DNA from: Paenibacillaceae bacterium
Lineage (GTDB): Bacteria > Bacillota > Bacilli > Paenibacillales > NBRC-103111
Assembly: GCA_029256185.1 (NCBI GenBank)
Contig: JAQSYI010000057.1
Location: 1 to 64,000 of the forward strand
Direction: 5' to 3'
DNA length: 64,000 bases
In this document: one piece after another, positions 16,787 to 45,246 of the stretch
Layout: each line of letters begins with the position of its first letter
Numbering within the stretch: position 1 is the stretch's first letter
Position numbers and translations under genes: made by a program
The notes under the pieces: generated by a model
What the model was told of the DNA's origin: nothing
The model's input: only the letters and a program-made list of their open reading frames with translations
Databases searched by the model: none

Positions 16787-17647
16787 TTACTGTACCTTGT
16801 CCCTGAAAGGAATCCACGCTTCAAAATAGCGGTACCGCTCCTTGTGGCCGCCTCCGGCTTGCAGGGCATTGGCTATGGTGACTAATTGCACATCTCCGTT
16901 CAGCTCCAGACGGTTGTCCGCCATGAACTGCTCCGCATAATCCAGATAGCTCCATTTCACCGTATCATACGAATCTACCTTGAAGATCGTATAGATGCAC
17001 GCCCGCGGCTCCACATAGAAGGAAGTGGGGATTTGGTCGAAGCCGAAAAATTCGGCAGACGGCGCATCCATGGTCAAATCGCAATACGTGGACACAGGAT
17101 TGGGCTTGGTTTCAATGTCGGATTGTTTGATGGCCAAGGTATGCCGGCATAGAGGCATGGCTTCCATGGCGATTTTCCGGGCCAATGTGCCGTTATCCGA
17201 GTTTTCCAGAATGTCCTCGCGCAGATGAAGATGATGCCAGCGCCCCGGCAGGACCCGGTGGAAGCAGCGCTTGTAGAATACCGGGATGGACTCGACCAGC
17301 TCCTTGAATTGCTTCATTCCTTCCAGGCAAAATTGCTTTTTTTGCAGCTCCCTTTCCGTTTCTTCAATCTTTTCGCTCAAATTCCCGGCAAGCTGCTCCA
17401 GATCATTCTCATTGAAGATTTTTTCCGTTTCCTCTATGGAGAAGCCCATGTTCTGGTATTGTTTGCGGACCATAATTTTGTAGACGTCATAGGAAGCGTA
17501 CAGGCGCTCGTTCTTTTGCTTCTTCTCACTGGGAAGCACGATGCCCACCTTGTCATAATAACGGATGGTCTGGGGGTGCATGCCCAGCATATTGGCGATT
17601 TCACCGATGCGGTAAGTGGCCTTGAATTTCCGGTCTTTGTTTTCCAT
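16787..17647 (-). CDS. MerR-family regulator with GyrI-like effector domain
   Basis: About 286 residues. The N-terminal winged helix reads YRIGEIANMLGMHPQTIRYYDKVGIVLP, then a long dimerisation helix (about residues 70-125, NENDLEQLAGNLSEKIEETERELQKKQF), and a C-terminal domain of about 150 residues (SAEFFGFDQIPTSFYVEPRACIYTIFKVDSY) of the BmrR/GyrI-like effector-binding type. ATG at 17647 follows AGGGGC; M at 17686 is an alternative. It is divergent from the truncated esterase copy and upstream of the dehydrogenase/transporter operon, whose promoter has MerR architecture. Its first about 18 codons and the divergent promoter region also occur as a decayed copy at 42255-42330. Confidence 0.88.
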   Translation of the reverse strand: MENKDRKFKATYRIGEIANMLGMHPQTIRYYDKVGIVLPSEKKQKNERLYASYDVYKIMVRKQYQNMGFSIEETEKIFNENDLEQLAGNLSEKIEETERELQKKQFCLEGMKQFKELVESIPVFYKRCFHRVLPGRWHHLHLREDILENSDNGTLARKIAMEAMPLCRHTLAIKQSDIETKPNPVSTYCDLTMDAPSAEFFGFDQIPTSFYVEPRACIYTIFKVDSYDTVKWSYLDYAEQFMADNRLELNGDVQLVTIANALQAGGGHKERYRYFEAWIPFRDKVQ

Positions 17648-18162
17648 ACGCCCCTGCCAGCCTTTGATTGGTTTTGATACAGACATCTTATCATTGGGCG
17701 GGGAAAAGCTCAAACTTCCCTGCTTCCACTCTTCACTCGGGAGAACAGCCGGGAAATTACGTCCATATGAGCGAAATCCAGTGCATTCCCAAATCTGTCC
17801 AAACGTTCTATGATAGCTGAAGTAAACTGGAAATAAAAAGCCTAGAATGGCTGGAGCAAGCACAATAAAGGAGTGGGTCGGTCATGCGTTGGGAGCAGGT
17901 AGAACTGCATAATGTGGAGGAAAGAATAGAATTGCCGGATAGACCCGGGGTGCTGCTGCAGCGGCTGCCCGAGTCCGTTCGGGTGCAGCTTAATGAAGGG
18001 GCAAGGAATGCTGCCAGACGGGCCGCCGGTGTGGAGATCCGGTTTGTTAACGAAGGAGACGGCGCGGCCGTTGTCTCGCTGGCGTCGTACCAGTCCCCGA
18101 GCAAGGTATATGTGTATGCGGGCAGCCATTACGTGGCGGAATACCAGGAGGGGGAGGAGCCT
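17594..18162. repeat. Copy A of a duplicated merR-esterase junction
   Basis: This stretch is closely similar to 42255-42816 (mostly identical, with a few short indels). It spans the start of the MerR gene, the divergent intergenic region and the first about 93 codons of the SGNH hydrolase. In copy A the MerR gene is whole and the esterase is cut. The similarity stops at GAGCCT (18162), and a short patch (ACTGAGATGACG, about 18214) resembles sequence just after the intact esterase (about 43778), suggesting an internal deletion. Confidence 0.85.
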
Positions 18163-18626: not shown

Positions 18627-18839
18627 GGTATTCAGGTACCTGTCGGCTGCCGGGTGATTGGCATCGATGATATTGCGACTTCCGCCTCCCCTCAGCCTTC
18701 GCTGACAACGGTCTGCCTGGCCAAAGAAGAGCTGGGGGTGCGGGTCGTCGAAGTGCTCCGGAGGCGAATCGTCAACAGCCATGCGGCTCCCGAGAAGATC
18801 ATTCTGTCCGCCCGGCTGGTAATCCGCCAAACGGTTTAA
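18627..18839 (+). pseudogene. LacI-family regulator remnant (C-terminal end)
   Basis: In frame it reads GIQVPVGCRVIGIDDIATSASPQPSLTTVCLAKEELGVRVVEVLRRRIVNS..PEKIILSARLVIRQTV and a stop, which is the classic C-terminal end of a LacI/GalR ligand-binding domain (VIGFDDI..PxLTTV..LxxRL..R.S). The DNA-binding and most of the sensor domain are absent. Its stop overlaps the stop of the convergent GH50-like gene by four bases, so a LacI regulator probably once stood next to that gene. Confidence 0.82.
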
Positions 18840-20851
18840 AAACAAACCCGTTCCATCTCCTCGGCCGGAGTTTTACACTTCTCAACTTTTCCATCTGCCA
18901 CCTGATAGAGCGTCCGGTTGGTCTTTGTCATATATTCTATAAACTCCTTGTAGGGTCTGTTGCAGACATCCACGCATCCGATCTGGTTACTTTCGCCATC
19001 GAATCTTCCCAGCACTGCCTGATCGTTATAAATGAAATAATGCGCTCCGGTAAAATACTTTTCCGCCGCACCATTTTCGAGATAAAATTGATACGCTTTC
19101 CCCCGTTCCGCCTGTGAACTCACCCCCCTCAAGCCGGTACTCATTAGTCCCCGGTCCAAGGCGCCAAAATGATATTCCCCTATCATCACCGGCAGATTTG
19201 TCATTTTCCCAATTTTCTCGATTTCTTTTGCGGGATCCATCTTGTAGCAGTTAAATGAAAATACATCAAAGTACTCGCAGCCTGATACTTGCTTGGCCTG
19301 ACATATTTCTCCATACCTCATGCCAAGGTTTAAATGATAGGGATCGACCCGCTTGACTGCTTCGCTCGGAATTCTGACGTAGTTCCTGATCATGATTTCC
19401 GAAAAATCCTCCAAATCTTGTGCCGCCGCTTCCGATAACCGAGAGGCCTTCTTGATGGGCTCCTTTAACTGTTCAAAAAAAATAAAGCCCGTATTCCATG
19501 CTGCATTAAGCTTTTCAATTGAGCCCTCATATCGATTAGAGATGAATTGAATCAACTCATCTTTGGAAGCCAAATCCTCCGGATAGGCCAACAGCTCTTC
19601 CGCAATATTGAGATCCTCGACAAACGCCCAGGTTGGTTCATTTCTAAGAAAATATCCGATCAAATACGAATCTCCTGCAAATTCCTTTAATTGTTGCGCA
19701 AACTTTTCCGCCTCTCGCTGATATTCCTCACTGAAAACATCAGGAAAGTCCCTGAATATTTTCTTTTCTGTCTGCGGGAAACCAACCAGCGGCCAGACGT
19801 AAGACATTTTGGCATACCTTATAAATTCCAATGAAGACCAATTTGCAATGGTATTTACTCCCCATTCCATCAGCCTCCTTTTTGTCAACCTCGCCCATGG
19901 CTCCCACCAATTCCGTCCAAAAGCCCTGATTAAATTGGCAACAGCAAAATTATAGTATGCTTGGTCATCAAATCTTTCGCCAAGCCTCCACGCATCACTA
20001 AATTCTCCATCCTTGTCAGGAAACTTCTCATAGAATGCTTCAATATCCTGAATTCTTCCAGCCTCTCCCGGATTGACACTGTCGATTCCCGTACTAATAA
20101 ATGCATATCCTTCCGGGTCCACCAGCCACCATCTCGTTCCATCGTGCTGAGTTCTAAAGTACCCTGTTGCATCAAACCTCTTTTCCTTCCAGCCGCCATA
20201 GCGGCTCCAGTTCTCAGGAAAAGCAGCCGTAACATCCTTGTCAGCTTCATCTGTCAAATACTGCTTCAGCTCTTCCACATCCCCGGTTTTCCCGGGCCAA
20301 TCACGAATCGTTAACTGTCCCAGCTCATCCACCATCTTCTTGGCAGGCAAAGGATAGTCAGGCTCTTTATCCGTGATATGCAGGTTGGAAATCTCCAAGC
20401 GTTGTTTATCAAAACATTTCATAGGGCCTACAGCAAACCGGCTAACCTCTGCGGTTTCCACCCTGTTTCCGAAAACGACAGATTTCAGCTTGCCGGGAGT
20501 ACGCGGAAGAAACATTTGCTGAGAGTCCAAAGCCTGCAACGGAAGGCAAAGCCTGGTTTTCACCCCGGGAATCAATCCAAAAAAAATATTCATATCTGCT
20601 TCCGCTGTTAGATTGGAGTCTTTCCAAAATCTGAATTCCACCCCCAAATTCCAGCCTTCCAGATTAGTCGCATCCAGTACAATATATTTATCGCTGCTCC
20701 AATCCACACCGCCTAACCTTCCGGAAGGACCGTTCAGAACAATTGCTCCTCCGGTTTTTTCCGCATTTATTATCATGCTATTCCCTTCGGCGGATTTTTC
20801 CAGTGTACAATGAAGGGGCGTGAAATCGTCCAGATCCAGTTTATATTCCAT
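18836..20851 (-). CDS. GH50-like (beta-agarase family) glycoside hydrolase
   Basis: 671 residues, no signal peptide. An N-terminal jelly-roll-like region (about 1-200) is followed by a TIM-barrel beginning with FRTQHDGTRWWLVDPEGYAFISTGIDSV. The proton donor is likely E405 (YFLRNEP) and the nucleophile E559 (MIGEYHFGALDRGLMSTGLRGVSSQAERG); the latter stretch, with GAHYFIYNDQAVLGRFDGESNQIGCVDV, is the signature I associate with GH50 beta-agarases. GH50 members act exolytically on agar or related galactans. The absence of an export signal suggests it works on imported oligosaccharides. It starts behind AAGGAG. A 64-bp element 60 bp upstream is shared with the ABC importer/PL8 operon. Confidence 0.82.
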   Translation of the reverse strand: MEYKLDLDDFTPLHCTLEKSAEGNSMIINAEKTGGAIVLNGPSGRLGGVDWSSDKYIVLDATNLEGWNLGVEFRFWKDSNLTAEADMNIFFGLIPGVKTRLCLPLQALDSQQMFLPRTPGKLKSVVFGNRVETAEVSRFAVGPMKCFDKQRLEISNLHITDKEPDYPLPAKKMVDELGQLTIRDWPGKTGDVEELKQYLTDEADKDVTAAFPENWSRYGGWKEKRFDATGYFRTQHDGTRWWLVDPEGYAFISTGIDSVNPGEAGRIQDIEAFYEKFPDKDGEFSDAWRLGERFDDQAYYNFAVANLIRAFGRNWWEPWARLTKRRLMEWGVNTIANWSSLEFIRYAKMSYVWPLVGFPQTEKKIFRDFPDVFSEEYQREAEKFAQQLKEFAGDSYLIGYFLRNEPTWAFVEDLNIAEELLAYPEDLASKDELIQFISNRYEGSIEKLNAAWNTGFIFFEQLKEPIKKASRLSEAAAQDLEDFSEIMIRNYVRIPSEAVKRVDPYHLNLGMRYGEICQAKQVSGCEYFDVFSFNCYKMDPAKEIEKIGKMTNLPVMIGEYHFGALDRGLMSTGLRGVSSQAERGKAYQFYLENGAAEKYFTGAHYFIYNDQAVLGRFDGESNQIGCVDVCNRPYKEFIEYMTKTNRTLYQVADGKVEKCKTPAEEMERVCF

Positions 20852-20910
20852 CGTGTCAACTCCTTCTTTTTCCGTGAGATAGTAGTGGCAAATCTTCCTC
20901 CACGCCCCAA

Positions 20911-20974
20911 TTGTAAACGCTATAATAAGGAAACCATATATCTGTAGACCAGATGTTTTTTATCCTTAAATCAG
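20911..20974 (-). promoter_or_regulatory. Shared 64-bp promoter/operator element, copy 1
   Basis: Ungapped alignment with 39182-39245 gives 51 of 64 identical bases. On the minus strand it contains TTAAGG-17-TACAGA as possible hexamers, a 15-bp direct repeat (AAACATCTGGTCTAC / AGATATATGGTTTCC) suited to an AraC-type activator, and a cre-like TTATAGCGTTTACA downstream. It drives the GH50-like gene. Confidence 0.72.
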
Positions 20975-20997
20975 CTTTCATCACCACGCGTCCTATA

Positions 20998-30712: not shown

Positions 30713-33700
30713 TTACGGGTACGTAATGCGGCTGGTTATATCCACTCTGCCGATCTGCGGATTCCATGCGTTGACCGGCGACGGCTTAAAGGCAATCTTC
30801 AAATACTGGGTGCCCTCTGGCAGCGTGCCTGTGTAATCCACTTCATTCCAACCGCCGGAAGTGGTTGACTTTGTCGGAGCAAATGGAGTGTACGTCACAT
30901 TGTCCGCCGAAATAAGGAATTGCAGATCTTCGGTGCTCTCATACGACCATGACCAGGCTTTGACGGCAAACTGGCTCATGTCCATGTCAGGCTCCGCTTT
31001 GTATACTACATATTCCTCCGTATTTGTTGTTCGGACCAGCCTGGATGTGTCTCCTCCAGTATGGCCTGCATTAGCGCCTGTGAAGATCAGATGGTTGCTA
31101 TGGGCGTACATGATGCTGAAGTCGTTCTGCTCGTCTCTTACAGTGATGCTTGGCACCTTGCTTGTCATTTTAAATTCGCCAATCTGTGCAGTCCAGGAAT
31201 ATGCGGCGGATTTCTGCATGAAAACAACCTTTATATATTTGGTGCCTGCCGGAAGCGACCCGCTGTAGTTAACCTTGTTGTACGAAAGCACTTCAACTGT
31301 TTTCACCGGTGTAAACTGGGTGTAAGCAGAGTTATCCGGTGAAGTGTATATTTGGAAGTCTGTCATGGCTTCCCATTTATAGAACCAGGTCGTGAGGTCG
31401 AAGCTGGTTATATCGAACCCGTAAGGAGACTTGTAAGTCAGATATTCGCCATTTGTATTGGCAGCCGCCCGGATGATCCGCGACTCATCCCCGTTGAAAT
31501 TTTGGGGATACCCGCTTTCAAACTTTAAGGTTGCCGTTCGGTCGAATACGTTAGAGAAATCGTTCAACGAATCCTCCAGCGTAATTTCCCTGACAGCCGG
31601 AACGGTGGGAGGAGCAATTGCGCTGGTAATTCTCACCTCACCAATCTGGGGATTCCAGATATAATTTGACTTAAGCGCATAGACGATCTTCAGAAATTTC
31701 GTTCCTTCTGGAAGCAACCCGCTATAGTTGACTTTTGTCCACCTCGGCACTGCTGTCGTTTTAGTAGGTGTATACAAGGTATAAGTGATATCGTCGGACG
31801 AAGTATAAATTTGGAAATCCGTCTTGGCTTCGTTCGACCAGAACCAGGTTGTGATATCGAAGCTTGTCATCTCACGGTTATCGGCAGCCTTGTAAATGAG
31901 ATATTCTTCATTCGTGTTAGTCGTTGTCCGGATGGCGCGCGATGTGTCTCCATTGAAGTACTCCGGAGAGCCGCGTTCAAAATCCAGATTGGAGCTGCGT
32001 GCATAGACCTGGGTATAATCGTCCAATACATCCACCGTAGTCAAAATCTCAGGCTCCGGCTCAGCGGGCGGATTAACCGGCGGGACAGGCGATGGTGTGG
32101 GCAGCGCGGTCTGAACCGCCGTGTCGTATGCGAACTTTATCGAATGGGAGTGCCCGTTCCGCTGCTCCGTATTCACTTCGAATCGGATGGTGGGCTGAAG
32201 CTGCAGGACGGTAACTGAATCATCCTGCTCGACAACGGCTAGGCCGTTTCTGGCGATTTCAAAGGTAAGCTTGCTCTGGAGCTGGGTCGGATCGGATACG
32301 GCAACATCCAGTACCCCTTCCTGATCCTTCAGCGTGATGGAGGAAGTGTCTGATGCAGTAACCCGATCGACGGTTCCCGGCTCCCAAAAGTTAGCGCCAA
32401 CTATATACTGCGTCCTTTCACGGACAGCCTGAATATTACGGTTGTTAGCGATAATCTCGATATCCGGATTCGCACTATAGCTTGCTGTCTCTTCCGCCGT
32501 CTTGTTGGGCAAGAGCACATAGGAATAATCCTTGTTGGTGGGACTCTTGCCGTGATCGTACCACAGCGTCAAGTAATTCTTCGAGATCGGATTGGTGGTT
32601 CCCCCCGCCGTTATTTCCGACCAAGTGCCTGTTGAGGTTGCGCGTTGGGCTTTAATCGAGGCCGATCCCGGGAAGTAATAGCCGCCTGTGCCTTCCAAGT
32701 AGGCATAATCCACACTATTCAGATCCTCCATCCATCCCAGATTGACCGGTTTGGACACCCCGTTGACGATAAATTGCTCATCGCCCATGGCCTTCTTCGA
32801 CGAATGCAGCGGGTTCAGAACAGGGCCCAGCGCATTGGGAGCGTAAAGCTGGATTTCGGAGACCCTATTGGCAGAGGACAGTTGATCGCCGTCAAACACA
32901 AATTTGACATATCTTGCCGTCGTATCTGCAAAATCATAGGGCATGATTTCCGCTGTACGCCCGATGCTGAAGCCGCTGTAGACCGTACTCCATACGGTTC
33001 CGTCCAAAGAGGTATCGATACGGAATGGGTACTCCGTCTGCGTTCCCTGGTAAAAGCTGATCCCGGCATGGCCGATCGGAACATCGCTGCCCATATCGAA
33101 TTGCACCCATTGTCCGCTGCCGTACGAGCTCCAGTAGCTTGTAATATTGTTGTCTATGGCTGATTTGTAGCTGGCGGAGTAGGTGCTATCCGTAACCGTA
33201 ACAGGGGATAACGGAACCACCTCCGGCATAATCACAAGATTGCCCGCCGCACAGGGGGCGTACAATTGTACTTCCGTAATGCTATTCCATAAATTAGTTG
33301 AATTTCCATGACCAACAATCTTCACATATCGGGCTTCCACATCCGGGAAATCGAATACTTGGATGGTATCATCGGCAACGATGCTGGAGCTTCCACTGAA
33401 AGCAGTGCTCCATGTTTGGTTGTCGGTAGAAACCAGAATATCGATTTGGGTCGTTCTGGTGCTCTGAACCATGAAGCTGATTCCGGCATAGCCTAGCGTC
33501 TGCGTCTTGCCAAGATCGTATTGGAGCCATTGCCCGTTGCCGGAGGAGGACCACCTTGTGGTAAAACTATTGTCTATGGTGTTCTCCGGAAGATTACCAT
33601 CGTTGCCGCTATCTGATACAGCGTATACCTTGAGGCGAACCGGTTCCCCTCCGAGTGAAGCAGAAGCGGGAGAGAGCAGATCAATGCCTTGGAAGGATTG

Positions 33701-35398
33701 GGTTTTATTCAGCATCCGGTTCTCAATGGTGGTTTCAATGGTCCGGCTATCGGAGCTGTAAATTCCGGCCCCTAGAGCAACCATCTCGTCATCAAACATA
33801 AACCAGGATTTCTTGGCTGTTAATGAGCTTCCGTACGCTTTATAGTCCATTCCGACGGTATAGGTTTCCCCCAGCAGCTCCGAACCGCCTGCGAAGGTGT
33901 TGGGGCTTCTGTATCCTGTCCCTTCATAATTCGCAGTACTCCGCGTCATGGTATCCACCGTTGTGCCGGGGAGGCGATACTTGTTCACCGTTGGCCAGAA
34001 ATCATAATATTGCCGCAGGTCATGGTTATTGTACAGGTAGGTCATGCCTGCCCCTGTATACCAGCCCTTCAAGTTCTCGCCAACAGTCGCTTCATGGGTC
34101 CCAATCCGCTTGGAGGACATACTAAGACCGATGCCGAAGCCGGGGCGAAGATGAACCGCGCGATCCATGCCGGCGTATATCTTGCTCAGGAGCTTCTCGC
34201 CTCTGGGCTCGATCGAAGCATCCTCCATGATTTGTTGGGTCCATAGGGCAATCCTCAAGTTGACAACGCTATAATAATTAAACTCCGTATCCGCCTGAAG
34301 CCAATATTTGACCATCGACTTCATTCTCAGGGCATCCGCTTCTGGCGCCATCTGGGCCAGGCGCACAATGGCCGCTATCGTATTATGACCGGTCGTATGA
34401 TCCTGTTCATAATTTCGGACGATTGCTCTTCCCCGGACCATATCCATCATGGCGCCGTTATAGATAAGCGGCTCATAGGCGTTATAGATCCATTCGTACA
34501 TATGATTGACATCCGGGTCTGTCACTTCCCATACAGAACCCTTCAGCATATAGAGAGCATTGCCCAACTCTTGCAGGAGGCTAACCCCATATCCGCCGGT
34601 ATACGCAAACACGGTGTGCTGAACAAAGGAGCCGTCCTCGTAGAATCCGTCGCCAACATTCACATAGTCAAAAACCGGACTTAGTCCGTCTCTTGCCGAG
34701 GCGATTTTGGCGGGATCCTTCACAATGATTCCACGCAGGGCAATAAGATTGCATTTCCAGACCAGATTAGCGCCGGTATTGTCCAACTGGTTATAGTTCA
34801 CCCTCTGGGGAACAGGCGAAAACCGCTCAATCGGCTTCATGTAATTGGCAATCTTCTCTGGTGTAGCAATCAGATCATCATACATAAGCACAACGGTATC
34901 ATTCAATTGCAGGGGAGAACCAATTTCCCAATCCCACCAGTTGTCATAATAAGCTCGGGTTTCGTTGTAACGGTTGACATACATCCAGTCCAATGCGCCG
35001 ATGATGTCCGTCTTCAACTGCGGATTGCCATAGAGGGCGGTACCCGGGGTGCTATAGGCAAGCGCCATGTTCTTAATCCGCTGATAAGATTGGGTAACAT
35101 GGCTTGAGTTTGTTGGACTGGCCAAATCACTCCACAGATAAGTCCGGGCCGTCACAGATGTATTCATGGTGCCCCAGTTGGTTTGACTCAAACTGTATAA
35201 TTGGGCGGAGACGATTGGGTCATTCACATCGTAGCCGCTGCCTCCGGTCAAATTATCCTTCCACCTTAATCTCGCCGTATCAAATTCGTCATTGGCAGCG
35301 CTTACGTTTGTTGCCATAAAAGGAGCAAATAACGAAACAAACAATGCCATAACAAGAAATATGCTTAACCTTCGGCTCCATTCTTTCCTAACCATCAT
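30713..35398 (-). CDS. Secreted polysaccharide lyase family 8 with nested discoidin domains and three C-terminal modules
   Basis: About 1561 residues. Signal peptide (LSIFLVMALFVSLFAPFMATNVSA) to about residue 36. The PL8 alpha/alpha toroid spans about 40-390. In track numbering the catalytic set N213 (LDNTGANLVWK), H263 (SFVQHTVFAY), Y272 and R326 (RGRAIVR) has exactly the spacing I recall for pneumococcal hyaluronate lyase (N349, H399, Y408, R462). The beta-domain is interrupted at about 588-855 by two F5/8C discoidin domains (IDNSFTTRWSSSGNGQWLQYDLG; IDNNITSYWSSYGSGQWVQFDMG) and resumes at FIVNGVSKPVNLGWMED. Three copies of a about 140-residue unknown module end the protein. PL8 enzymes act on hyaluronan, chondroitin or xanthan; which one is not readable. 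It is last in the ABC importer operon. Confidence 0.92.
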   Translation of the reverse strand: MMVRKEWSRRLSIFLVMALFVSLFAPFMATNVSAANDEFDTARLRWKDNLTGGSGYDVNDPIVSAQLYSLSQTNWGTMNTSVTARTYLWSDLASPTNSSHVTQSYQRIKNMALAYSTPGTALYGNPQLKTDIIGALDWMYVNRYNETRAYYDNWWDWEIGSPLQLNDTVVLMYDDLIATPEKIANYMKPIERFSPVPQRVNYNQLDNTGANLVWKCNLIALRGIIVKDPAKIASARDGLSPVFDYVNVGDGFYEDGSFVQHTVFAYTGGYGVSLLQELGNALYMLKGSVWEVTDPDVNHMYEWIYNAYEPLIYNGAMMDMVRGRAIVRNYEQDHTTGHNTIAAIVRLAQMAPEADALRMKSMVKYWLQADTEFNYYSVVNLRIALWTQQIMEDASIEPRGEKLLSKIYAGMDRAVHLRPGFGIGLSMSSKRIGTHEATVGENLKGWYTGAGMTYLYNNHDLRQYYDFWPTVNKYRLPGTTVDTMTRSTANYEGTGYRSPNTFAGGSELLGETYTVGMDYKAYGSSLTAKKSWFMFDDEMVALGAGIYSSDSRTIETTIENRMLNKTQSFQGIDLLSPASASLGGEPVRLKVYAVSDSGNDGNLPENTIDNSFTTRWSSSGNGQWLQYDLGKTQTLGYAGISFMVQSTRTTQIDILVSTDNQTWSTAFSGSSSIVADDTIQVFDFPDVEARYVKIVGHGNSTNLWNSITEVQLYAPCAAGNLVIMPEVVPLSPVTVTDSTYSASYKSAIDNNITSYWSSYGSGQWVQFDMGSDVPIGHAGISFYQGTQTEYPFRIDTSLDGTVWSTVYSGFSIGRTAEIMPYDFADTTARYVKFVFDGDQLSSANRVSEIQLYAPNALGPVLNPLHSSKKAMGDEQFIVNGVSKPVNLGWMEDLNSVDYAYLEGTGGYYFPGSASIKAQRATSTGTWSEITAGGTTNPISKNYLTLWYDHGKSPTNKDYSYVLLPNKTAEETASYSANPDIEIIANNRNIQAVRERTQYIVGANFWEPGTVDRVTASDTSSITLKDQEGVLDVAVSDPTQLQSKLTFEIARNGLAVVEQDDSVTVLQLQPTIRFEVNTEQRNGHSHSIKFAYDTAVQTALPTPSPVPPVNPPAEPEPEILTTVDVLDDYTQVYARSSNLDFERGSPEYFNGDTSRAIRTTTNTNEEYLIYKAADNREMTSFDITTWFWSNEAKTDFQIYTSSDDITYTLYTPTKTTAVPRWTKVNYSGLLPEGTKFLKIVYALKSNYIWNPQIGEVRITSAIAPPTVPAVREITLEDSLNDFSNVFDRTATLKFESGYPQNFNGDESRIIRAAANTNGEYLTYKSPYGFDITSFDLTTWFYKWEAMTDFQIYTSPDNSAYTQFTPVKTVEVLSYNKVNYSGSLPAGTKYIKVVFMQKSAAYSWTAQIGEFKMTSKVPSITVRDEQNDFSIMYAHSNHLIFTGANAGHTGGDTSRLVRTTNTEEYVVYKAEPDMDMSQFAVKAWSWSYESTEDLQFLISADNVTYTPFAPTKSTTSGGWNEVDYTGTLPEGTQYLKIAFKPSPVNAWNPQIGRVDITSRITYP

Positions 35399-35497
35399 TA
35401 ACACGCCCTTTCATTTCGCTTCCATTGCTGAGCAAACACGATTTTGTATGCGCTTTCTTTATATCCCGAAGTCATGCCTAAAACAAGCAGGTGTTTG

Positions 35498-35530
35498 GGG
35501 GAGCTCCTTGCCAATCGACAAGGAACTCCC
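35498..35530 (-). other. Intercistronic hairpin between importer and lyase genes
   Basis: Minus strand GGGAGTTCCTTG pairs with CAAGGAGCTCCC over an 8-base loop, without an immediate T-run. It lies between the binding-protein stop and the lyase start, and could reduce read-through or stabilise the upstream message. Confidence 0.6.
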
Positions 35531-35546
35531 TACCCGCCCGGACTGA

Positions 35547-37196
35547 TTACTTCAAGTTTTTATTCAGATCATCCAGACCAGGCTGAACCTCCTGGAGCTT
35601 CTGGTTCACCCAGTTATTCCAATCCTTCTCAATATCCTTGGAGGTCATCAACTCCGCAATCTTCTTGGAAATGTCCGTGTCTGTCATCGCCTTGGTAAAT
35701 ACAGGGGATGTATAATACGCCTGTTCCACATTCATCTTGATAACATTGCTTTCGGGGCCGCTGTACAGCTCCAGGTTGCGGCGAATCATATCCCGCGCCC
35801 ACTGCGGGTTGGAAATATTATCAAGGTTGGCTGCGTCGCGACCGCCGGCAGGTCTTAACCACGATGTACTCCCGTAGGCATACGGATAAACAGGGTTGCC
35901 ATTGGCATCCTTCTCTTTCCAAAGCACTTCCACTTTCCCTGCACTATCCAATTTCCAGTCTACATCCTTAATCCCGTATCCTGCAAACAGACGGCCTTCA
36001 TCTGATGTGTAGAAATCCATAATTGCCGCCCAGCGTTCCGCCTTCTCATCGCTCATCTTGTGATTCATGGCTGTTTGTGACCAGTGATCCGATCCTTGCC
36101 AGGCGACAAGCTTTCCGTTGGGCGCTTTCACCTTGGCCAATCCGATGGATGTCTGCGGATCAAGAGCCGGGTTGGCGTCCTTGAAGTTTTTGAACAAGCC
36201 TACGGTCGTACTCATCGTAACGCCTGAAGCAACAATAGAAAATGATTTGCCCGCAACGAAATTGTTGTCGGCGTCCCCCGATTTTACCAAAGGCTGATCC
36301 TTCCAGATGATTCCTTCATCGTATTGCTTCTTGATTTCCTTCACCGCTTCCAGCGTCTCCGGCAGTGTCGCACCCCATATCCAGGTTCCATTCTTGTCTT
36401 TCACAACGGTATCCATGTAGGGTGAGATTCCCCCGACTACATACTTGGGAAAAGCCCAGGCGTCTCTGAAAATCATCCCGATGGTTTTCCCGGCGCCATT
36501 CTTCCCGGGGTCCTTCTCCCGGACGGCCTTCACCAGGTTGTTCCACTCATCATAGGTATAAATATCGTCTTCCTTGACCATGCCTACGTCCTTGGCCCAG
36601 TCTTTCCGGTAGAAGTAGCCTGATCCATTATACACATAGTCATATTTGCTCAGGTCGCTAACGGCCGGCCAAGCGTACATTTTTCCGTCGATATTGAATT
36701 TCTTGCCTGCTGTCATTGCATCGTATTGCTTCTTCAGGTTGGGATACTTGGCCAGTTCAGGATAAGGCTTGAACAGTCCCGCTTTGACCCATTCGACGAA
36801 CTCGCCGTAGCGGCTTTGATGCACATCCAGCATAATCAAGTCCGGCGCCGAATCGGAATTAAGCCATACCCGGGTTTGATCCAGATAGTTTGCCCAGGTC
36901 AACGGTACAAATTCAAATTCCACATTGAATTTCTCGCTTAACCACTTGAAATTTTCCGCCGGTTGACCCGAGGCAGTCAAGCCAGCCTTCTCGGCGTCGA
37001 TGACGCTCATGGTGAATTTCAGCTTATTCTTGAACGGGTTGGCTTCCGGTGAAGCAGTTGCAGACGTATTGGCTGCTGCTGATGGTGAAGAAGCAACCTC
37101 CGGCTTGTCGGAACTACACCCCGCCATTAATCCTGCCGCCATGGTGAAGACCATTGTTCCTGCAAACCATTTGTACTTTCTAGTTCCAGTGGTCAT
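35547..37196 (-). CDS. Extracellular sugar-binding lipoprotein of ABC importer 1
   Basis: 549 residues. The lipoprotein signal ends in MAAGLMAGC, with the cysteine as lipidation site, followed by a Ser/Ala/Pro-rich linker. The rest is a family-1/LplA-like solute-binding protein (NPFKNKLKFTMSV, WLNSDSAPDLIMLDVHQ, AWPAVSDLSKYDYVYNGSGYFYRKDWAKDVG). It captures an oligosaccharide for the two permeases encoded just upstream. Start at ATG behind GGGAGG. The nearby PL8 lyase suggests unsaturated uronic oligosaccharides as ligand, which is inference. Confidence 0.9.
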   Translation of the reverse strand: MTTGTRKYKWFAGTMVFTMAAGLMAGCSSDKPEVASSPSAAANTSATASPEANPFKNKLKFTMSVIDAEKAGLTASGQPAENFKWLSEKFNVEFEFVPLTWANYLDQTRVWLNSDSAPDLIMLDVHQSRYGEFVEWVKAGLFKPYPELAKYPNLKKQYDAMTAGKKFNIDGKMYAWPAVSDLSKYDYVYNGSGYFYRKDWAKDVGMVKEDDIYTYDEWNNLVKAVREKDPGKNGAGKTIGMIFRDAWAFPKYVVGGISPYMDTVVKDKNGTWIWGATLPETLEAVKEIKKQYDEGIIWKDQPLVKSGDADNNFVAGKSFSIVASGVTMSTTVGLFKNFKDANPALDPQTSIGLAKVKAPNGKLVAWQGSDHWSQTAMNHKMSDEKAERWAAIMDFYTSDEGRLFAGYGIKDVDWKLDSAGKVEVLWKEKDANGNPVYPYAYGSTSWLRPAGGRDAANLDNISNPQWARDMIRRNLELYSGPESNVIKMNVEQAYYTSPVFTKAMTDTDISKKIAELMTSKDIEKDWNNWVNQKLQEVQPGLDDLNKNLK

Positions 37197-37283: not shown

Positions 37284-38150
37284 CTATGCCTTAACGCCAC
37301 CCAGAGTCAAACCCTTGACGAAATATTTCTGGAGAAATGGATATACGATGGATATCGGCAGTATGGTTACAATGATCCCGGCCATCTGAATCCCTTGAGG
37401 GAATGTGTTGGGCCGTAGATCCTCAGGCAATTCGTTGATGACACTGCTGGCGGACTGCAGCATATTGCGTATCATCAACTGCAGCGGCAACTTGTCTATG
37501 GAGCGAATAAACAGCATCCCGTTATACCACTCATTCCAGCGATCCACCCCGTAGTACAATCCAATCGTGGCTAACATGGGTACAGATAAGGGCAAGTATA
37601 TTTTCATCAGAATCTGCATCTCTCCAGCCCCATCCAGCCGGGCTGCTTCATCCAGATCGATGGGAATGGTCTGGAAGTAACTGCGCATAATCATCAGATT
37701 CATCACTGCAATCCCCGCTGGCAGAATCATGGCGCCATAACTGTCAATGAGATGCAGATTCTTGATCAGCAGATATCCGGGAATGAGCCCTCCCTGGAAG
37801 AACATCGTGAAGATAACGAATAAATTAACAATCCGCCTCCCCGGTATCGGCTTGGAGAGTACATAAGACATGGTCACGGTCAAGAACAGGTTGTAGGCCA
37901 CGCCCAATATAACCACGATCACGGTTGACTTGAAGCCGGAGAAGAGTCCCCGCCATTGAAAGATGAACTCATAGGAGGAAAAGTCCAACTCGGGCGGATA
38001 GAGCAGGAAGGGAGACCGCACATAGACGGACATGGGCACGATAGAAGTTAGCACCGCATTATAGAAGGGGTAAAGAATAATGATTCCCCAGAGAATCATG
38101 AAACTGGCGGCGAAGATTTGAAAGGAACTGAACTTTTTCACATTGTACAC
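37284..38150 (-). CDS. ABC importer 1 permease, LplC/YtcP type
   Basis: 288 residues, about six membrane segments. The EAA loop contacting the ATPase reads SYFQTIPIDLDEAARLDGAGEMQILMKIYLPLSVPMLATIGLYYGVDRWNEW, typical of MalG/LplC proteins, and the end PFLQKYFVKGLTLGGVKA is characteristic of LplC. AGGAGGTG precedes the ATG. It starts four bases after the stop of the partner permease. No ATPase gene is nearby; this importer class normally shares an MsmX-type ATPase. Confidence 0.92.
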   Translation of the reverse strand: MYNVKKFSSFQIFAASFMILWGIIILYPFYNAVLTSIVPMSVYVRSPFLLYPPELDFSSYEFIFQWRGLFSGFKSTVIVVILGVAYNLFLTVTMSYVLSKPIPGRRIVNLFVIFTMFFQGGLIPGYLLIKNLHLIDSYGAMILPAGIAVMNLMIMRSYFQTIPIDLDEAARLDGAGEMQILMKIYLPLSVPMLATIGLYYGVDRWNEWYNGMLFIRSIDKLPLQLMIRNMLQSASSVINELPEDLRPNTFPQGIQMAGIIVTILPISIVYPFLQKYFVKGLTLGGVKA

Positions 38151-38153
38151 CTC

Positions 38154-39134
38154 CTATATCATTCTCGAATCGCTGTCCAGCCTGCCAATGATGAAATTGG
38201 CGGATAGCAGCAGGATGCAGTTGACGACACCCTTGAACAATCCCACCGCTGTACTAAGCCCATAATCTGGCGTCTGCTGGAAGCTGATGCGGTATACATA
38301 GGTATCGATAATGTCCGCCCACTTCATGACAATGGGATTATACAAATTAAATACCTGGTCGAAATTACCGCTAATAGAATATCCTACAGACATAATCAGC
38401 AGAATGGCCGCTGTGCTTCTGATGCCTGGCCAGGTAATATGCCATATGCGCTGAAAGCGGCTTGCTCCGTCTATCGTAGCGCTTTCATACAGAGCAGGGT
38501 CAATGCCTACAATGGCCGCCATGTAGATAATACTGCTCCAACCGGCCTCCTTCCATATACCACTGAAGACCAGCAGCCCACGGAATATATTGCCTTCTGT
38601 CAGAAACCCGACAGGTTGACCTCCCAGAGCAGTAATGAGAGAATTCAGCATTCCGTCCGTGGAGAGCAGATTCATCATAATGCCGCTGATGGTCACCCAG
38701 GACAGGAAGTGGGGCAGTGTGAACACAATCTGCAATCCTCGGCGCAGCTTGCTGGAATACAGCTCATTCAGAATAATCGCCAGAATAATCGGAACCGGAA
38801 ATGAGAACACAGTTCGGAGAAACGATATAATCAGCGTGTTCTTCAATGCGATCCAGAATTCCTGGCGGCCGAACAAGGTCTGGAAATTATCCAACCCCAC
38901 CCATGGACTGTGGGTAATCCCCTTCGCAATACTATACTGCTTGAATGCCAACTGAATGCCGTACATGGGTCCATAGGCAAACAGGGCGAAGAATATGACC
39001 CCGAAGCTCAATAGTACGTACAATTTCCGGTAATGCCAAATTTGACGTCTCAACTGGTGCATTCTCTCCGAACGCCCGCTTGTCCGTCCACGCTGCCCAG
39101 CCGCCGGACTTCCCTCTGTCACAGCAAGTTTCAT
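38154..39134 (-). CDS. ABC importer 1 permease, LplB/YteP type
   Basis: About 326 residues with a polar N-terminus of about 40 residues and six membrane segments. LplB markers: LFAYGPMYGIQLAFKQYSIAKGI, FILSFLRTVFSFPVPIILAIILNEL-like, and the EAA loop ALYESATIDGASRFQRIWHITWPGIRSTAAILLIMSVG. The track start is eight codons upstream; ATG at 39134 has GAGGGAGGAATT before it. It is the first gene of the importer/PL8 operon, with the shared 64-bp regulatory element 50-110 bp upstream, after the histidine kinase gene. Confidence 0.9.
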   Translation of the reverse strand: MKLAVTEGSPAAGQRGRTSGRSERMHQLRRQIWHYRKLYVLLSFGVIFFALFAYGPMYGIQLAFKQYSIAKGITHSPWVGLDNFQTLFGRQEFWIALKNTLIISFLRTVFSFPVPIILAIILNELYSSKLRRGLQIVFTLPHFLSWVTISGIMMNLLSTDGMLNSLITALGGQPVGFLTEGNIFRGLLVFSGIWKEAGWSSIIYMAAIVGIDPALYESATIDGASRFQRIWHITWPGIRSTAAILLIMSVGYSISGNFDQVFNLYNPIVMKWADIIDTYVYRISFQQTPDYGLSTAVGLFKGVVNCILLLSANFIIGRLDSDSRMI

Positions 39135-39181
39135 GCCAATTCCTCCCTCACTCCACATTCTGATTTTCTTCTATATCTCTA

Positions 39182-39245
39182 TTGTAAGCGCTGCAATGAA
39201 GGAGTCATATGTCTGTAAATCAGATGTCTTTTATCCTCAAATCAG
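39182..39245 (-). promoter_or_regulatory. Shared 64-bp promoter/operator element, copy 2
   Basis: 80% identical without gaps to 20911-20974. Minus strand features: TTGAGG-17-TACAGA, a 15-bp direct repeat (AGACATCTGATTTAC / AGACATATGACTCCT) and a cre-like TTGCAGCGCTTACA. It lies between the kinase gene and the importer operon and probably binds the YesN-like regulator encoded upstream. Confidence 0.72.
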
Positions 39246-39279
39246 GTTACCCCTTAATCAGACCTAAGCAGCACCCAAA

Positions 39280-41103
39280 TCAGTTCCTGTCCAGCTTGAC
39301 CTTCACCGTTATGCAGGTTCTTATATGGGGCTCACTATCCACCAGCAGCCCGCAGCTTTTTCCGTAATACAGCTTGATTCGTCCATTGATATTCGCCAGG
39401 CCAATCCGGGACCGCTGCCGGCCGGCTGCATCCCTTGCCCAACTGGTTTGAAATGTGTCATTTAGTTCCTGGACTTGCTCCTTATCCATTCCCGAGCCTG
39501 TATCTGAAACGGCAAAATAGGCAAATTCCCCATCCCGCCAACCGCTAATGGCTATCTGAAGCTCGTCATCCGTCACCTCTAGGCCATGGCGCACACAATT
39601 TTCGACCAGCGGCTGAAGAGACATTTTGATCATCGTACAGCTATTCAAGCTTTCATCTACATTGATGGACAGCTGGAGCCTGCCTTCGTAGCGGATAGAA
39701 ATAATCCGGTAATAATCCGTTACACATTCCAGTTCGGCCTGCACTGTGGTAGTAATCCCGCCATTGATGCTGTATCGAAAAATATTGGCCATGCTCCCCA
39801 CAATGACGACAATTTCCTTCGCCTTGTATACGGTGGCAATGCTGCGAATGCACTCCAGCGTATTGTACAGAAAGTGAGGATTAATCTGGCTTTGCAGCGC
39901 CAATATTTCCGATTCCTTCTGCATCAGCTCCAGCTTGTGCAGCTGCTCCTGCATATCAAATATATGCTGTGTCATCCAGTCTGACTTATTCAGCATATCA
40001 TTGATGTTTCCGGCAATCGTACCGAACTCATTCTTGTACCTGACCTTGAGTCGGGCTTCCCGGTTACCTTCCCCGATTTCCTTCAAGGTGGCCAGAATCG
40101 AGGTAAGGGGGCGATTGATCCCCTGAATCATCCCCAGACCCAGCAGAAAGAGTACTGCAATACTGACCGCTGTCAATCCAATCCCTTGGTAGAACAAGCG
40201 TGCAATGTCGGCGTACACCTCATGGACCGGCGTAATATTGATGGACTTCCAGCCTGATTGGGGGTTGGTTTTGATTAATACATAAGAACTCTGTCCAAGA
40301 AAGTCATATGTCCCTACAGTGTTGCTCAGCCCGTGGGCTTCAACCTGTCCCATCAGGCGGGCGATGGGTTCAACCACAGCTTGCGTATCTCTCCCGGAAT
40401 TAAGGGCAATAATCCGGTTGTTCCCGTCGGTAATCGCCACCAATGAATGGACTGTCGCCGCAGTGCCTGTCACTACCTCACTCAGCCACTTCTGCCTGCT
40501 CCACAGGATGCAATAGCCCGTCCTCTGGTTGCGCTCCTCATATAGCCCGGTTGTATGACGGATGGGCACCACATAGGCAAAATGCCGGTACAAGGAGGAA
40601 TCATCGGCGCTATAACTGATCCAGACCGGGGCCAGCTCCGGGTTGTCGCTCTCGAAGTCAATCTGCCGGCTGATGACCTGATAGATGGAGTAGGTGAAGA
40701 TGTTCTTGTAGGTCAACAGTGACCTGGTTCGGTCTACCAGAGCGATATCCAGAATAATGTCGCTGGAACCGGTAATTCCGCCGAAGAAATTGGATATGTT
40801 CTTCGCCAGCACGGACCGTTCGGTTATGCTCTCGGACAGGGAATCGTTCTGCAGCTGCAAATATTCCTGCACGTAGGGGTTATTGGCGATAGATTGGCCG
40901 GTTTTTTCAATCTGCTCCGACGTCTGGCTCAGAACCATATCCGTGCGGTTAATATTGGCATAAATTTCCGCCGTGTTCTCATTGCGCTGGCGGATATAAA
41001 TATTGGCATAGAAGAACAATTGCAGCAGCAAAATCATGAATGAGGCTGTGCAGAACATCAGAATCAACTGTCGGCGCAGACTTAAGGAGCGCAGTCGCTT
41101 CAC
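39280..41103 (-). CDS. YesM-type sensor histidine kinase
   Basis: 607 residues. Two membrane segments (about 12-32 and 303-325) enclose a Cache-like extracellular sensor domain. A HAMP linker (INRPLTSILATLKEIGEGNREARLKVRYKNEFGTIAGNINDMLNKS) leads to the His_kinase domain with the phospho-accepting histidine in LQSQINPHFLYNTLECIRSIA, and the ATPase with QPLVENCVRHGLEV and FAVSDTGSGMDKE. It starts at GTG four bases after the stop of the response regulator gene. With that partner it probably senses a sugar outside the cell and switches on the importer, the lyase and perhaps the GH50-like gene. Confidence 0.93.
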   Translation of the reverse strand: MKRLRSLSLRRQLILMFCTASFMILLLQLFFYANIYIRQRNENTAEIYANINRTDMVLSQTSEQIEKTGQSIANNPYVQEYLQLQNDSLSESITERSVLAKNISNFFGGITGSSDIILDIALVDRTRSLLTYKNIFTYSIYQVISRQIDFESDNPELAPVWISYSADDSSLYRHFAYVVPIRHTTGLYEERNQRTGYCILWSRQKWLSEVVTGTAATVHSLVAITDGNNRIIALNSGRDTQAVVEPIARLMGQVEAHGLSNTVGTYDFLGQSSYVLIKTNPQSGWKSINITPVHEVYADIARLFYQGIGLTAVSIAVLFLLGLGMIQGINRPLTSILATLKEIGEGNREARLKVRYKNEFGTIAGNINDMLNKSDWMTQHIFDMQEQLHKLELMQKESEILALQSQINPHFLYNTLECIRSIATVYKAKEIVVIVGSMANIFRYSINGGITTTVQAELECVTDYYRIISIRYEGRLQLSINVDESLNSCTMIKMSLQPLVENCVRHGLEVTDDELQIAISGWRDGEFAYFAVSDTGSGMDKEQVQELNDTFQTSWARDAAGRQRSRIGLANINGRIKLYYGKSCGLLVDSEPHIRTCITVKVKLDRN

Positions 41104-41107
41104 AACA

Positions 41108-41863
41108 TCACTCTCCCTTCCGCAGTCCGGCCGGTGTGACGCCTGTTATCTTCTTGAAGATTCTGTTGAAGTAAAAGTAGTCCGTATAGCCCACCTTCTC
41201 GGCTACCTCGGCAACAGGCAGCGACGTCTTGACAAGCAATTCCTTCGCTTTGTTGATGCGAATGGAATTCACGTATTCCGAATAGGTCATTCCCGTATGC
41301 TTCTTGAAGAGGGCACTGGCATAATTCTTGTTAAAAAAGAACTTCTGGGACAAGTCCTTCAGCTGAATCTGTTCCTGATAATGCTCATTCAGGTAGAGAA
41401 GCATCCTCCCGAAGCCGGTGGAATCGCTGTCATCTTCTTGCTCGCTTATGACAGCTTCCGGAGGGTTGCCTTTCATCGCAGCATGCTTCTCGTCCAGCCG
41501 TTTTTTGAGCCGCGGCAGCAAGGATTGGGAGGTTTCCTCACTCAAGGGCTTCAGGCAGTAATCGAAGGCGCCTGCCCGAATTGCTTGCTGGGCATACTCG
41601 AACTGGCCGAAGCCGCTGATGATGACAATCTCCGTATCCAGACCATTCTGCCGCAAGACTTCCATCAATTGAATACCGCTGACCCCCGGCATTTGAATGT
41701 CGGTAAATACCGCATCGGGACGTGTGGCCAGAATCTCGTCCAGAGCCATGGCCGATCTGGAATAGGCTCCGATTACCTGGAACCCCCATTCCGACCAAGC
41801 AAAGGTTTGGGCAATCCCCTTCAATATCCATGGCTCATCATCCACCAGAACCACACTGTACAT
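41108..41863 (-). CDS. YesN-type AraC response regulator
   Basis: 251 residues, short for the family. Receiver domain about 1-120 with phospho-acceptor aspartate in PDAVFTDIQMPGVSGIQLM and the conserved Lys in YCLKPLSEE. The C-terminal AraC double helix-turn-helix begins at about 150 (YLNEHYQEQIQLKDLSQKFFFNKNYASALFKKHTGMTYSEYVNSIRINKAKELL..VAEKVGYTDYFYFNRIFKKITGVTPAGLRKGE). The usual long linker between them is nearly absent. It is co-transcribed with the kinase. The direct repeats in the two 64-bp elements are its likely targets. Confidence 0.93.
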   Translation of the reverse strand: MYSVVLVDDEPWILKGIAQTFAWSEWGFQVIGAYSRSAMALDEILATRPDAVFTDIQMPGVSGIQLMEVLRQNGLDTEIVIISGFGQFEYAQQAIRAGAFDYCLKPLSEETSQSLLPRLKKRLDEKHAAMKGNPPEAVISEQEDDSDSTGFGRMLLYLNEHYQEQIQLKDLSQKFFFNKNYASALFKKHTGMTYSEYVNSIRINKAKELLVKTSLPVAEVAEKVGYTDYFYFNRIFKKITGVTPAGLRKGE

Positions 41864-42254
41864 ATTTCTCCCCCCCGTTTTCTAATTCTATCAACACCGA
41901 CAGATAAATAAAAGCGCCGATTTGCGGATTGCCCCTCGCCCCCCGCATAAGAATCGGAATACAACACAAAAAATAAAAGCGGATTCCAACAATAAATGTA
42001 GGTGTCCACAAAAGAAGCGGACTCCTTTGCCTACGTGGTTTGCTGTGGTCTTCTTTATCGCTCACGATAAATCCGGCATGCTAATCGGGATAGCCATTTT
42101 AAATAATAAGGGCACATTCAAAAGAAAAATAGACCAATTAAATGGGGGGTAGAAAGAATAGAACGGATGATTACGCATCAAACCTGAAAATTCCTGTTTT
42201 GGAAGTCGGAGAGTTTGCTGTCGTTGATTCGGGACAGATCCGCACCTCCGCATA
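41864..42254. other. Gene-free region upstream of yesN-like gene
   Basis: No supported gene. It should contain the regulator promoter (leftward), and several imperfect inverted repeats (for example GTAGG...CCTAC at about 41999-42035). Just before the duplication begins, a short open stretch (LKIPVLEVGEFAVVDSGQIRTSA, about 42183-42255) is not recognised. Confidence 0.45.
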
Positions 42255-42816
42255 GGCGATTTCACCGATGCGGTAAGTAGCCTTGAATTTCCGGTCTTTG
42301 TTTTCCGTACGCCGCTGCCAGCCTTCGAGTGGTTTTATACAGACATCTTATCACTGGGCCGGGAAAAGCTCAAACTCCCCTGATCCCGCTCTTCAGCCGG
42401 GATAACAGGTGTGAAACTTCGTGCATATCAGCGAAATCCTGTCCATTCCCAAATCAGTCCCAATGTTCTATGATAGCTGAAGTGACTGGAATAACATTGG
42501 GATAGCTGGAGCAAGTACATAAAGGAGAGGGTCGGTTATGCGTTGGGGACAAGTAGAACTGCATAATGTGGAGGAGAGCTTGGAATTGCCGGGGAAACCG
42601 GGTGTGCTGCTGCAGCGGCTGCCCGAGTCCGTACGGGTGCAGCTTAATGAGGGAGCAAGGAACGCTACCAGACGGGCCGCCGGTGTGGAAATCCGGTTTG
42701 TTAACGAAGGAGACGGCGCGGCCGTTGTCTCGCTGGCGTCGTACCAGTTCCCGAGCAAGGTATATGTGTATGCGGGCAGCCATTACGTGGCGGAATACCA
42801 GGTGGGGGAGGAGCCT
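42255..42816. repeat. Copy B of the duplicated merR-esterase junction
   Basis: Close copy of 17594-18162. Here only about the first 18 codons of the MerR gene remain (42255 to about 42310, on the minus strand, now without the rest of the gene), while the esterase is complete and continues past the repeat. The divergent promoter region is kept. The decay pattern is the mirror image of copy A. Confidence 0.85.
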
Positions 42817-43809: not shown

Positions 43810-45246
43810 CTAATTGATAAACCCGGCTGACTTCAATATGCGTCCCAGCATCGCCGCCGCTTCGGCACGGGTGGAGCGTTCCGCGGGCTCCAAAGCATTA
43901 TTGGAGCTCCCCTCCATAATGCCGCCCGCCACCATCTGCGCCATATCCTCCCTGGCCCATACACTAATGTCATTGCTGTCGAAGAATGAATCAAGCTCCT
44001 GTTCCCTCACGGATTCCAGCCGCACGCCCGCATAAGCGGCCATTCTCGACAGGAACACCGCAAGCTCCTCTCTGCTTATGAACTCATCCGGACGGAAGCT
44101 GCCGTCGCCGTAGCCTTCTGCAAGTCCGGCCTTCTGAGCAGTTGTTACAGAAGCTGCATACCAGTCGGAGTTCATCACGTCCGTGAAGGGCGCTGCCGGT
44201 TCATACCGGACCAGACCGAGAGCGCGGACCAACAATGTTGCCAGCTCTGCACGGGTGATCAGAGCGTCGGGAGCAAATCGGTCCGTCTCTCTGCCCTCCA
44301 GCAGCAGCTTGGATGCCAGCCGCTCCACATCCTCTGCTGCCCAATGGCCATCCAGATCGGTGAATGAGCGTTCCACTGACACCGCGCCGTAGATGCTGTT
44401 GCTGTTGCGCCTGATCGTGACCCATGTCTGGCCTTCTTCGTCCGTTTCGAAGACGGAAGGAACAAATTCTATGGTGCCTTCCTGGGGATCAAAGGTAACA
44501 GCCGTTGCTCTGCCGACGTTCACCCTGTCGCTTACGGGAATGGTTCGGGCCACAAAGGTTGATCCAAAGCCGCTTATGGCTTGTTCCTTCTCACCGGACT
44601 GGAGCGCCAGTTGAAAATCGAACCAATCGCCCAGCACCGAAACTCCCCTCGCGCCGGCTGCTGCCGCTGCGTCTGCGGCCGTGGCTGCAGCTCCGGTCAG
44701 CCTGCTGAGCGAGACGGCCAGCTGCCACTCTCCGGGATCTCCTGCAATTCCTCCGGCCGTTCGTATCACATCCAACAGCGAAACGGGTATGTCATACTCG
44801 GCACCTGCTGCCCGGAAGGAGAGAATGCCCTGAGGCAGGCGAGCGGCAGCTGCCAGCAAGCTGTCTGCAGACAACAGAAAGCGCGCTGTATCTCCCTTAT
44901 CTACTCCTGATATCTGAATCACCAGCTTCTCTGTCCCGCCCGCGGCGGCCAAATCAACGGCTTGGGCAAAGCTGCCGGAGTCTGTCTGCACAGTAACAAG
45001 AGGAGCTCCCGTCTTACCAATGCCCCGGGATATCCGAAGTGCCTCCTGTTTCAGAAGAAACTCTGCCGCTACAGGCGAATCCGGTCCTGAGGCAGGGGGT
45101 GCAACGTTAATTTCAGCCGCCCTGGCAGGCTGCTCGACCTGCTCTGGTTCTTGCTCTGGTTCTTGCTCTGGTTCTTGCTCTGGTTCTTGCTCTGGTTCTT
45201 GCTCTGGTTCTTGCTCTGGTTCTTGCTCTGGTTCTTGCGGCGGCAT
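43810..45246 (-). CDS. SLH-domain surface anchor, probably the detached C-terminus of the upstream beta-helix protein
   Basis: 478 residues in the track. It begins with PPQ(EPEQ)8, a charged linker, then a domain of about 200 residues often found before SLH repeats, and three SLH domains (FTDLDGHWAAEDVERLASKLLLEG; FTDVMNSDWYAASVTTAQKAGLAEGYGDGSFRPD; SISVWAREDMAQMVAGGIMEG-like) that bind the cell wall polymer. It has no signal peptide and no convincing ribosome-binding site, and overlaps the end of the upstream ORF in another frame. The natural reading is that both ORFs were one about 1630-residue surface protein and a one-base change near GATGCCGCCGCAAGAA (about 45240-45250) split it. Confidence 0.85.
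   Translation of the reverse strand: MPPQEPEQEPEQEPEQEPEQEPEQEPEQEPEQEPEQVEQPARAAEINVAPPASGPDSPVAAEFLLKQEALRISRGIGKTGAPLVTVQTDSGSFAQAVDLAAAGGTEKLVIQISGVDKGDTARFLLSADSLLAAAARLPQGILSFRAAGAEYDIPVSLLDVIRTAGGIAGDPGEWQLAVSLSRLTGAAATAADAAAAAGARGVSVLGDWFDFQLALQSGEKEQAISGFGSTFVARTIPVSDRVNVGRATAVTFDPQEGTIEFVPSVFETDEEGQTWVTIRRNSNSIYGAVSVERSFTDLDGHWAAEDVERLASKLLLEGRETDRFAPDALITRAELATLLVRALGLVRYEPAAPFTDVMNSDWYAASVTTAQKAGLAEGYGDGSFRPDEFISREELAVFLSRMAAYAGVRLESVREQELDSFFDSNDISVWAREDMAQMVAGGIMEGSSNNALEPAERSTRAEAAAMLGRILKSAGFIN

Follow-up and report, generated by a model that had tools for sequence, protein, structure and literature searches.

Systems in which a YesM-type sensor kinase and a YesN-type response regulator accompany an LplABC-type importer are known in Bacillota, and YesN-type regulators rarely have known targets. 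In a tested precedent, XydS/XydR of Clostridium cellulolyticum, an AraC-type response regulator of 532 aa and its sensor kinase are encoded beside the target carbohydrate cluster; the regulator, whose targets are hemicellulase/CBM6 genes, binds (by EMSA) upstream both of the neighbouring cluster and of a distant gene, and the two bound regions share repeats (PMC3572039). A xanthan cluster of Paenibacillus taichungensis I5 combines PL8 xanthan lyases, importer binding proteins and kinase/regulator pairs with GH9, GH88, GH38 and GH92 enzymes (GH50 is unmentioned), and the signals and targets of its kinase/regulator pairs are stated to be unknown (PMC12827396).

The 64,000 nucleotides of Paenibacillaceae DNA analysed here (the window) contain a cluster with features of all three. 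Like the YesM/YesN-LplABC systems, it brings together a kinase, an AraC-type response regulator, two permeases and a binding protein, but a second putative operator precedes a non-adjacent GH50-like gene and a third lies near a paralogous system. Like XydS/XydR, it has its kinase/regulator pair beside a putative carbohydrate target and repeats common to a near and a distant candidate target, although the regulator is only 251 aa long and is predicted to act on an importer/PL8 operon and on the GH50-like gene. It differs from the P. taichungensis I5 cluster in having GH50-like, GH1, GH2 and esterase genes, and the xanthan substrate is only putative (GH88 genes, with 39 matches in the genome, were uninformative as a substrate clue). 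The genes and elements concerned are as follows.

18836..20851, minus strand: GH50-like enzyme, 671 aa (PDB matches to GH50 agarases)
20911..20974, minus strand: copy A of a 64-bp promoter element, upstream of the GH50-like gene (51/64 against copy B)
30713..35404, minus strand: secreted PL8 lyase, xanthan-lyase-like (Pfam PL8 domains; best PDB matches 6f2p and 1j0m)
35547..37196, minus strand: extracellular solute-binding protein with a lipoprotein-type N-terminus (PDB matches to binding proteins)
37284..38150, minus strand: LplC-type permease (Pfam BPD_transp_1)
38154..39158, minus strand: LplB-type permease (Pfam BPD_transp_1)
39182..39245, minus strand: copy B of the element, upstream of the importer operon (51/64 against copy A)
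39280..41103, minus strand: YesM-type histidine kinase (Pfam His_kinase, HATPase_c, HAMP)
41108..41863, minus strand: YesN-type response regulator, 251 aa, candidate activator (Pfam Response_reg and HTH_18, i.e. a receiver and an AraC-type helix-turn-helix)

We think it quite likely that the two 64-bp elements each combine a YesN-type operator, an activator-dependent promoter and a CcpA site, and that they define a small regulon spanning two loci; both sugar-degradation units would then probably be turned on together by one sensor system. As an instance of gene control, the shared promoter element is convincing but of an ordinary kind.

A preliminary description of this DNA had aligned 20911-20974 with 39182-39245 at 51 of 64 positions without gaps, and re-alignment reproduced this exactly. 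With the window compared against itself, BLASTN gave a gap-free alignment of 68 bp (20910-20977 against 39181-39248; 79.4% identity, E 2e-9) and no similarity past that module. By a simple binomial estimate, about 4e-10 such 64-mer pairs would be expected by chance in the window, where the next-best match to the shared consensus, copies A and B excluded, reached 30/51 positions. Both copies lie on the minus strand, in the same orientation. From the end of copy A it is 60 bp to the start of the GH50-like gene; from the end of copy B it is 24 bp to the annotated ATG of the LplB-type permease gene, or 48 bp to what is more likely its start, the ATG at 39134 behind GGGAGG. On the other side, the upstream neighbour of copy A is a glpX-type FBPase gene, which ends 24 bp away, and that of copy B is the kinase gene, which ends 35 bp away; no terminator-like site was found between either copy and its upstream gene, so transcriptional read-through from upstream is possible.

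Within the element, numbered from index 0 at its distal end, the following parts can be distinguished.

20960..20974, minus strand: copy A distal half-site, CTGATTTAAGGATAA (10/15 against the proximal half-site, 22-bp spacing)
20938..20952, minus strand: copy A proximal half-site, CTGGTCTACAGATAT (genome scan, two mismatches)
20911..20926, plus strand: copy A cre-like site, TTGTAAACGCTATAAT (consensus scan, one mismatch; putative function)
20910-20915, minus strand: copy A candidate -10, TACAAT, overlapped by the cre-like site
39231..39245, minus strand: copy B distal half-site, CTGATTTGAGGATAA (10/15 against the proximal half-site, 22-bp spacing)
39209..39223, minus strand: copy B proximal half-site, CTGATTTACAGACAT (perfect in the genome scan; common to contig C28)
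39182..39197, plus strand: copy B cre-like site, TTGTAAGCGCTGCAAT (consensus scan, one mismatch; putative function)
39181-39186, minus strand: copy B candidate -10, TACAAT, overlapped by the cre-like site

The half-sites occupy index 0-14 and 22-36, and the 15-bp direct repeat noticed earlier is present in copies A and B alike, as two direct-repeat half-sites about two helical turns apart. At 22 bp in the related site on contig C28 (discussed below) the distal half-site is poor (1/15), although by eye a weaker one can be seen at 21 bp. Against WTGNAANCGNWNNCAW, which we take to be the cre consensus, the cre-like sites claimed for both copies, and that of the C28 site, have one mismatch each (3/3 sites); they lie at index 48-63 in A and B and 69-84 in C28. 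A -10-like hexamer stands at index 59-64 in all three (TACAAT in A and B, TAAATT in C28), and as it overlaps the cre-like site in A and B, conservation there cannot separate the one from the other. The promoter-like hexamers attributed to each copy are weak: TACAAT is common to both, but the -35 hexamer is poor, and a sigma-A consensus scan for pairs of -35 and -10 hexamers at 16-18 bp spacing returned a single 9/12 match in B and none on the minus strand in A, so that no standard pair is present in both copies. If the hexamer is indeed a -10, the predicted transcription starts are near 20903 (A) and 39174 (B), with the half-sites covering about -71 to -57 and -49 to -35. Such a placement resembles that of class II AraC-type activators.

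The scan for further copies proposed earlier covered the whole 8.57-Mb genome. A 25-base operator core was found, at up to three mismatches, in two places only (copies A and B), and a 19-base proximal half-site, at up to two mismatches, occurred three times, its reversed-pattern control giving zero genome matches. A further three matches, each with exactly three mismatches, were discarded because they resemble coding sequence. With two full copies and one extra half-site, the many unrelated copies of a dispersed repeat are ruled out. The half-site 19-mer, within one mismatch, was absent from all 398 of 398 other genomes of the order.

The third half-site is a perfect match at 26241-26259 of contig C28, about 80 bp before a gene for a secreted GH26-like protein (a weak GH26 match) that is followed by a GH94 phosphorylase gene. 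This contig encodes a sister of the window's system, with permeases 70% and 64% identical to those of the window importer, a binding protein at 51%, a YesN-like regulator of 499 aa at 60%, two kinases at 41% and 39% and a GH2 enzyme at 37%, together with distant GH50-like proteins. The C28 importer operon itself has no clear copy of the element. The genome contains 539 first-look candidates for YesN-type regulators. Of its regulator paralogues that were scored, the C28 regulator has the helix-turn-helix closest to that of the window regulator (61%, the next being 51%), and within the set compared NKNYAS in the first helix-turn-helix is found in these two only. Near the more distant paralogues in the genome there was no site: the best scores there reached about 10-17, while the three sites score 29-30. 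One short BLAST hit beside a regulator paralogue on contig C12 has no CTGATTT core and was discarded. That the motif occurs on the same contig as the sister DNA-binding domain is our strongest indication of which protein reads it. The idea of a single regulon, put forward in the preliminary description, is largely supported by the sequence, with its promoter-confined element, its two full copies and a half-site near the closest YesN-like paralogue of the regulator, but the hexamers offered with it are weak. Beside the paralogous importer, C28:41721-48319 encodes a protein with cohesin and S-layer-homology domains, as well as one of 1578 aa that matches cohesin and, weakly, dockerin, possibly a cellulosome-like surface assembly.

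The enzymes themselves fit their family assignments. The GH50-like protein has the catalytic (beta/alpha)8 domain of its family: it aligns with PDB 5z6p (E 1e-54) around its NEP and IGE motifs, and both catalytic-type glutamates of GH50 agarases, the acid/base and the nucleophile, are kept in the alignment; no signal peptide was evident in the N-terminus. The link between this gene and an importer is supported independently of the element by the neighbourhoods of its homologues: among the 41 homologue loci with enough flank, the GH50-like gene directly adjoins an LplBC-type permease gene in 11, an LplBC-type permease occurs anywhere in the locus in 25, and YesMN-type genes are found in 23. The element was not seen above background at GH50-like homologue loci in other genomes (best 30/51), and five genomes of the family had no site around the genes of regulators with 42-48% identity. 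The GH50-like gene has a G+C content of 45.5%, well under its surroundings, and the closest homologues of its product (about 57-62%) belong to Clostridia-type genomes and others of Bacillota, not to Paenibacillus; from this horizontal transfer seems likely.

In the PL8 protein the catalytic Asn and His motifs, TGAN and QHT, align with those of the xanthan lyases 6f2p and 1j0m, its nearest relatives of solved structure. Its two xanthan-lyase-matching halves are separated (at residues about 568 and 873) by F5/8-type carbohydrate-binding domains, in an inserted-domain arrangement. The 143-bp gap between the binding-protein gene and the PL8 gene holds a strong hairpin (35470-35545) with no T run, so co-transcription of PL8 with the importer is plausible but not certain; the hairpin is possibly a point of differential expression. 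A cre-like sequence lies near it, at 35445-35458.

We suggest that the half-sites would be bound by a YesN-family AraC-type response regulator, either the product of 41108-41863 (placed beside copy B in the preliminary description, and YesN-like by its Pfam matches) or its C28 paralogue, or by the two of them. The proximal half-site would end at about the -35 position, followed by a weak -35 and the TACAAT -10; because the cre-like site overlaps this -10, we propose that in the presence of a preferred sugar CcpA would shut the promoter. The kinase encoded at 39280-41103 may sense the sugar of the importer, or its loaded binding protein. Once phosphorylated, the regulator would activate the importer operon, the PL8 lyase probably included, and also the intracellular GH50-like enzyme encoded 18 kb away. 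The related site on C28 may add the secreted GH26-like protein and possibly the downstream GH94 phosphorylase. Such an operator would provide a 15-bp half-site for the regulator pair and connect the uptake of what the PL8 lyase releases with a GH50-like enzyme inside the cell; being unique in the genome, it would tie the pair to specific genes and so make it directly testable.

Might the element instead be read by the 499-aa C28 regulator alone, with the window's own kinase/regulator pair controlling something else? The 61% identity of its helix-turn-helix, and the perfect half-site near its gene, would allow this, but copy B lies immediately downstream of the window's kinase gene, and the targets of a two-component system are usually its neighbours. 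Shared control by both regulators would explain the same facts equally easily, and we regard exclusive control from C28 as unlikely. A more elaborate extension, in which two paralogous YesMN systems share the operator and cross-regulate both loci as a composite regulon for an undescribed route of polysaccharide degradation (with extracellular PL8 and GH26-like proteins, two sister importers, and intracellular GH50-like, GH94 and GH2 enzymes), is a tentative possibility that we would not favour at present.

It could also be argued that copies A and B are no more than a recent promoter duplication, served by no common regulator and keeping only CcpA/cre control, as they are 18 kb apart within one stretch bounded by direct repeats, and each has a cre-like site. 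Against this, measured on the shared consensus, the mismatches avoid the half-sites (two in the first 25 bases, against seven in 13 bases at index 40-52), the flanks of the two copies show no similarity, and the half-site recurs independently on C28, so that duplication alone seems to us decidedly improbable. Least probable by far is a structured RNA leader (a riboswitch or attenuator) in place of a DNA operator: the element does occupy the 5' intergenic region of both genes, but a search of Rfam with the sequence around copy A gave nothing up to E 1, copy B, which includes the cre-like palindrome, leaves only 24-48 bp to the start codon, and the C28 site, in keeping the half-site while altering its spacing to cre, is better suited to protein sites.

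Both copies of the element fall in a 24-kb stretch (18163-42251) bounded by direct repeats of 572 bp with 89% identity (17591-18162 and 42252-42816), of which the genome has no further copies. The G+C content of the stretch is 50.6%, compared with 54.1% to its left and 55.9% to its right, and it was possibly acquired as a single block, as would suit a regulator common to both genes. The left repeat links a MerR gene with a truncated GDSL gene, and the right repeat a 5' fragment of MerR with an intact GDSL gene, as if the cluster had integrated between MerR and GDSL, or a duplication had taken place. Further along the window, tandem direct repeats at 45140-45238, in the gene for an SLH protein, encode a proline/glutamate-rich stretch of the (PEQE)n type.
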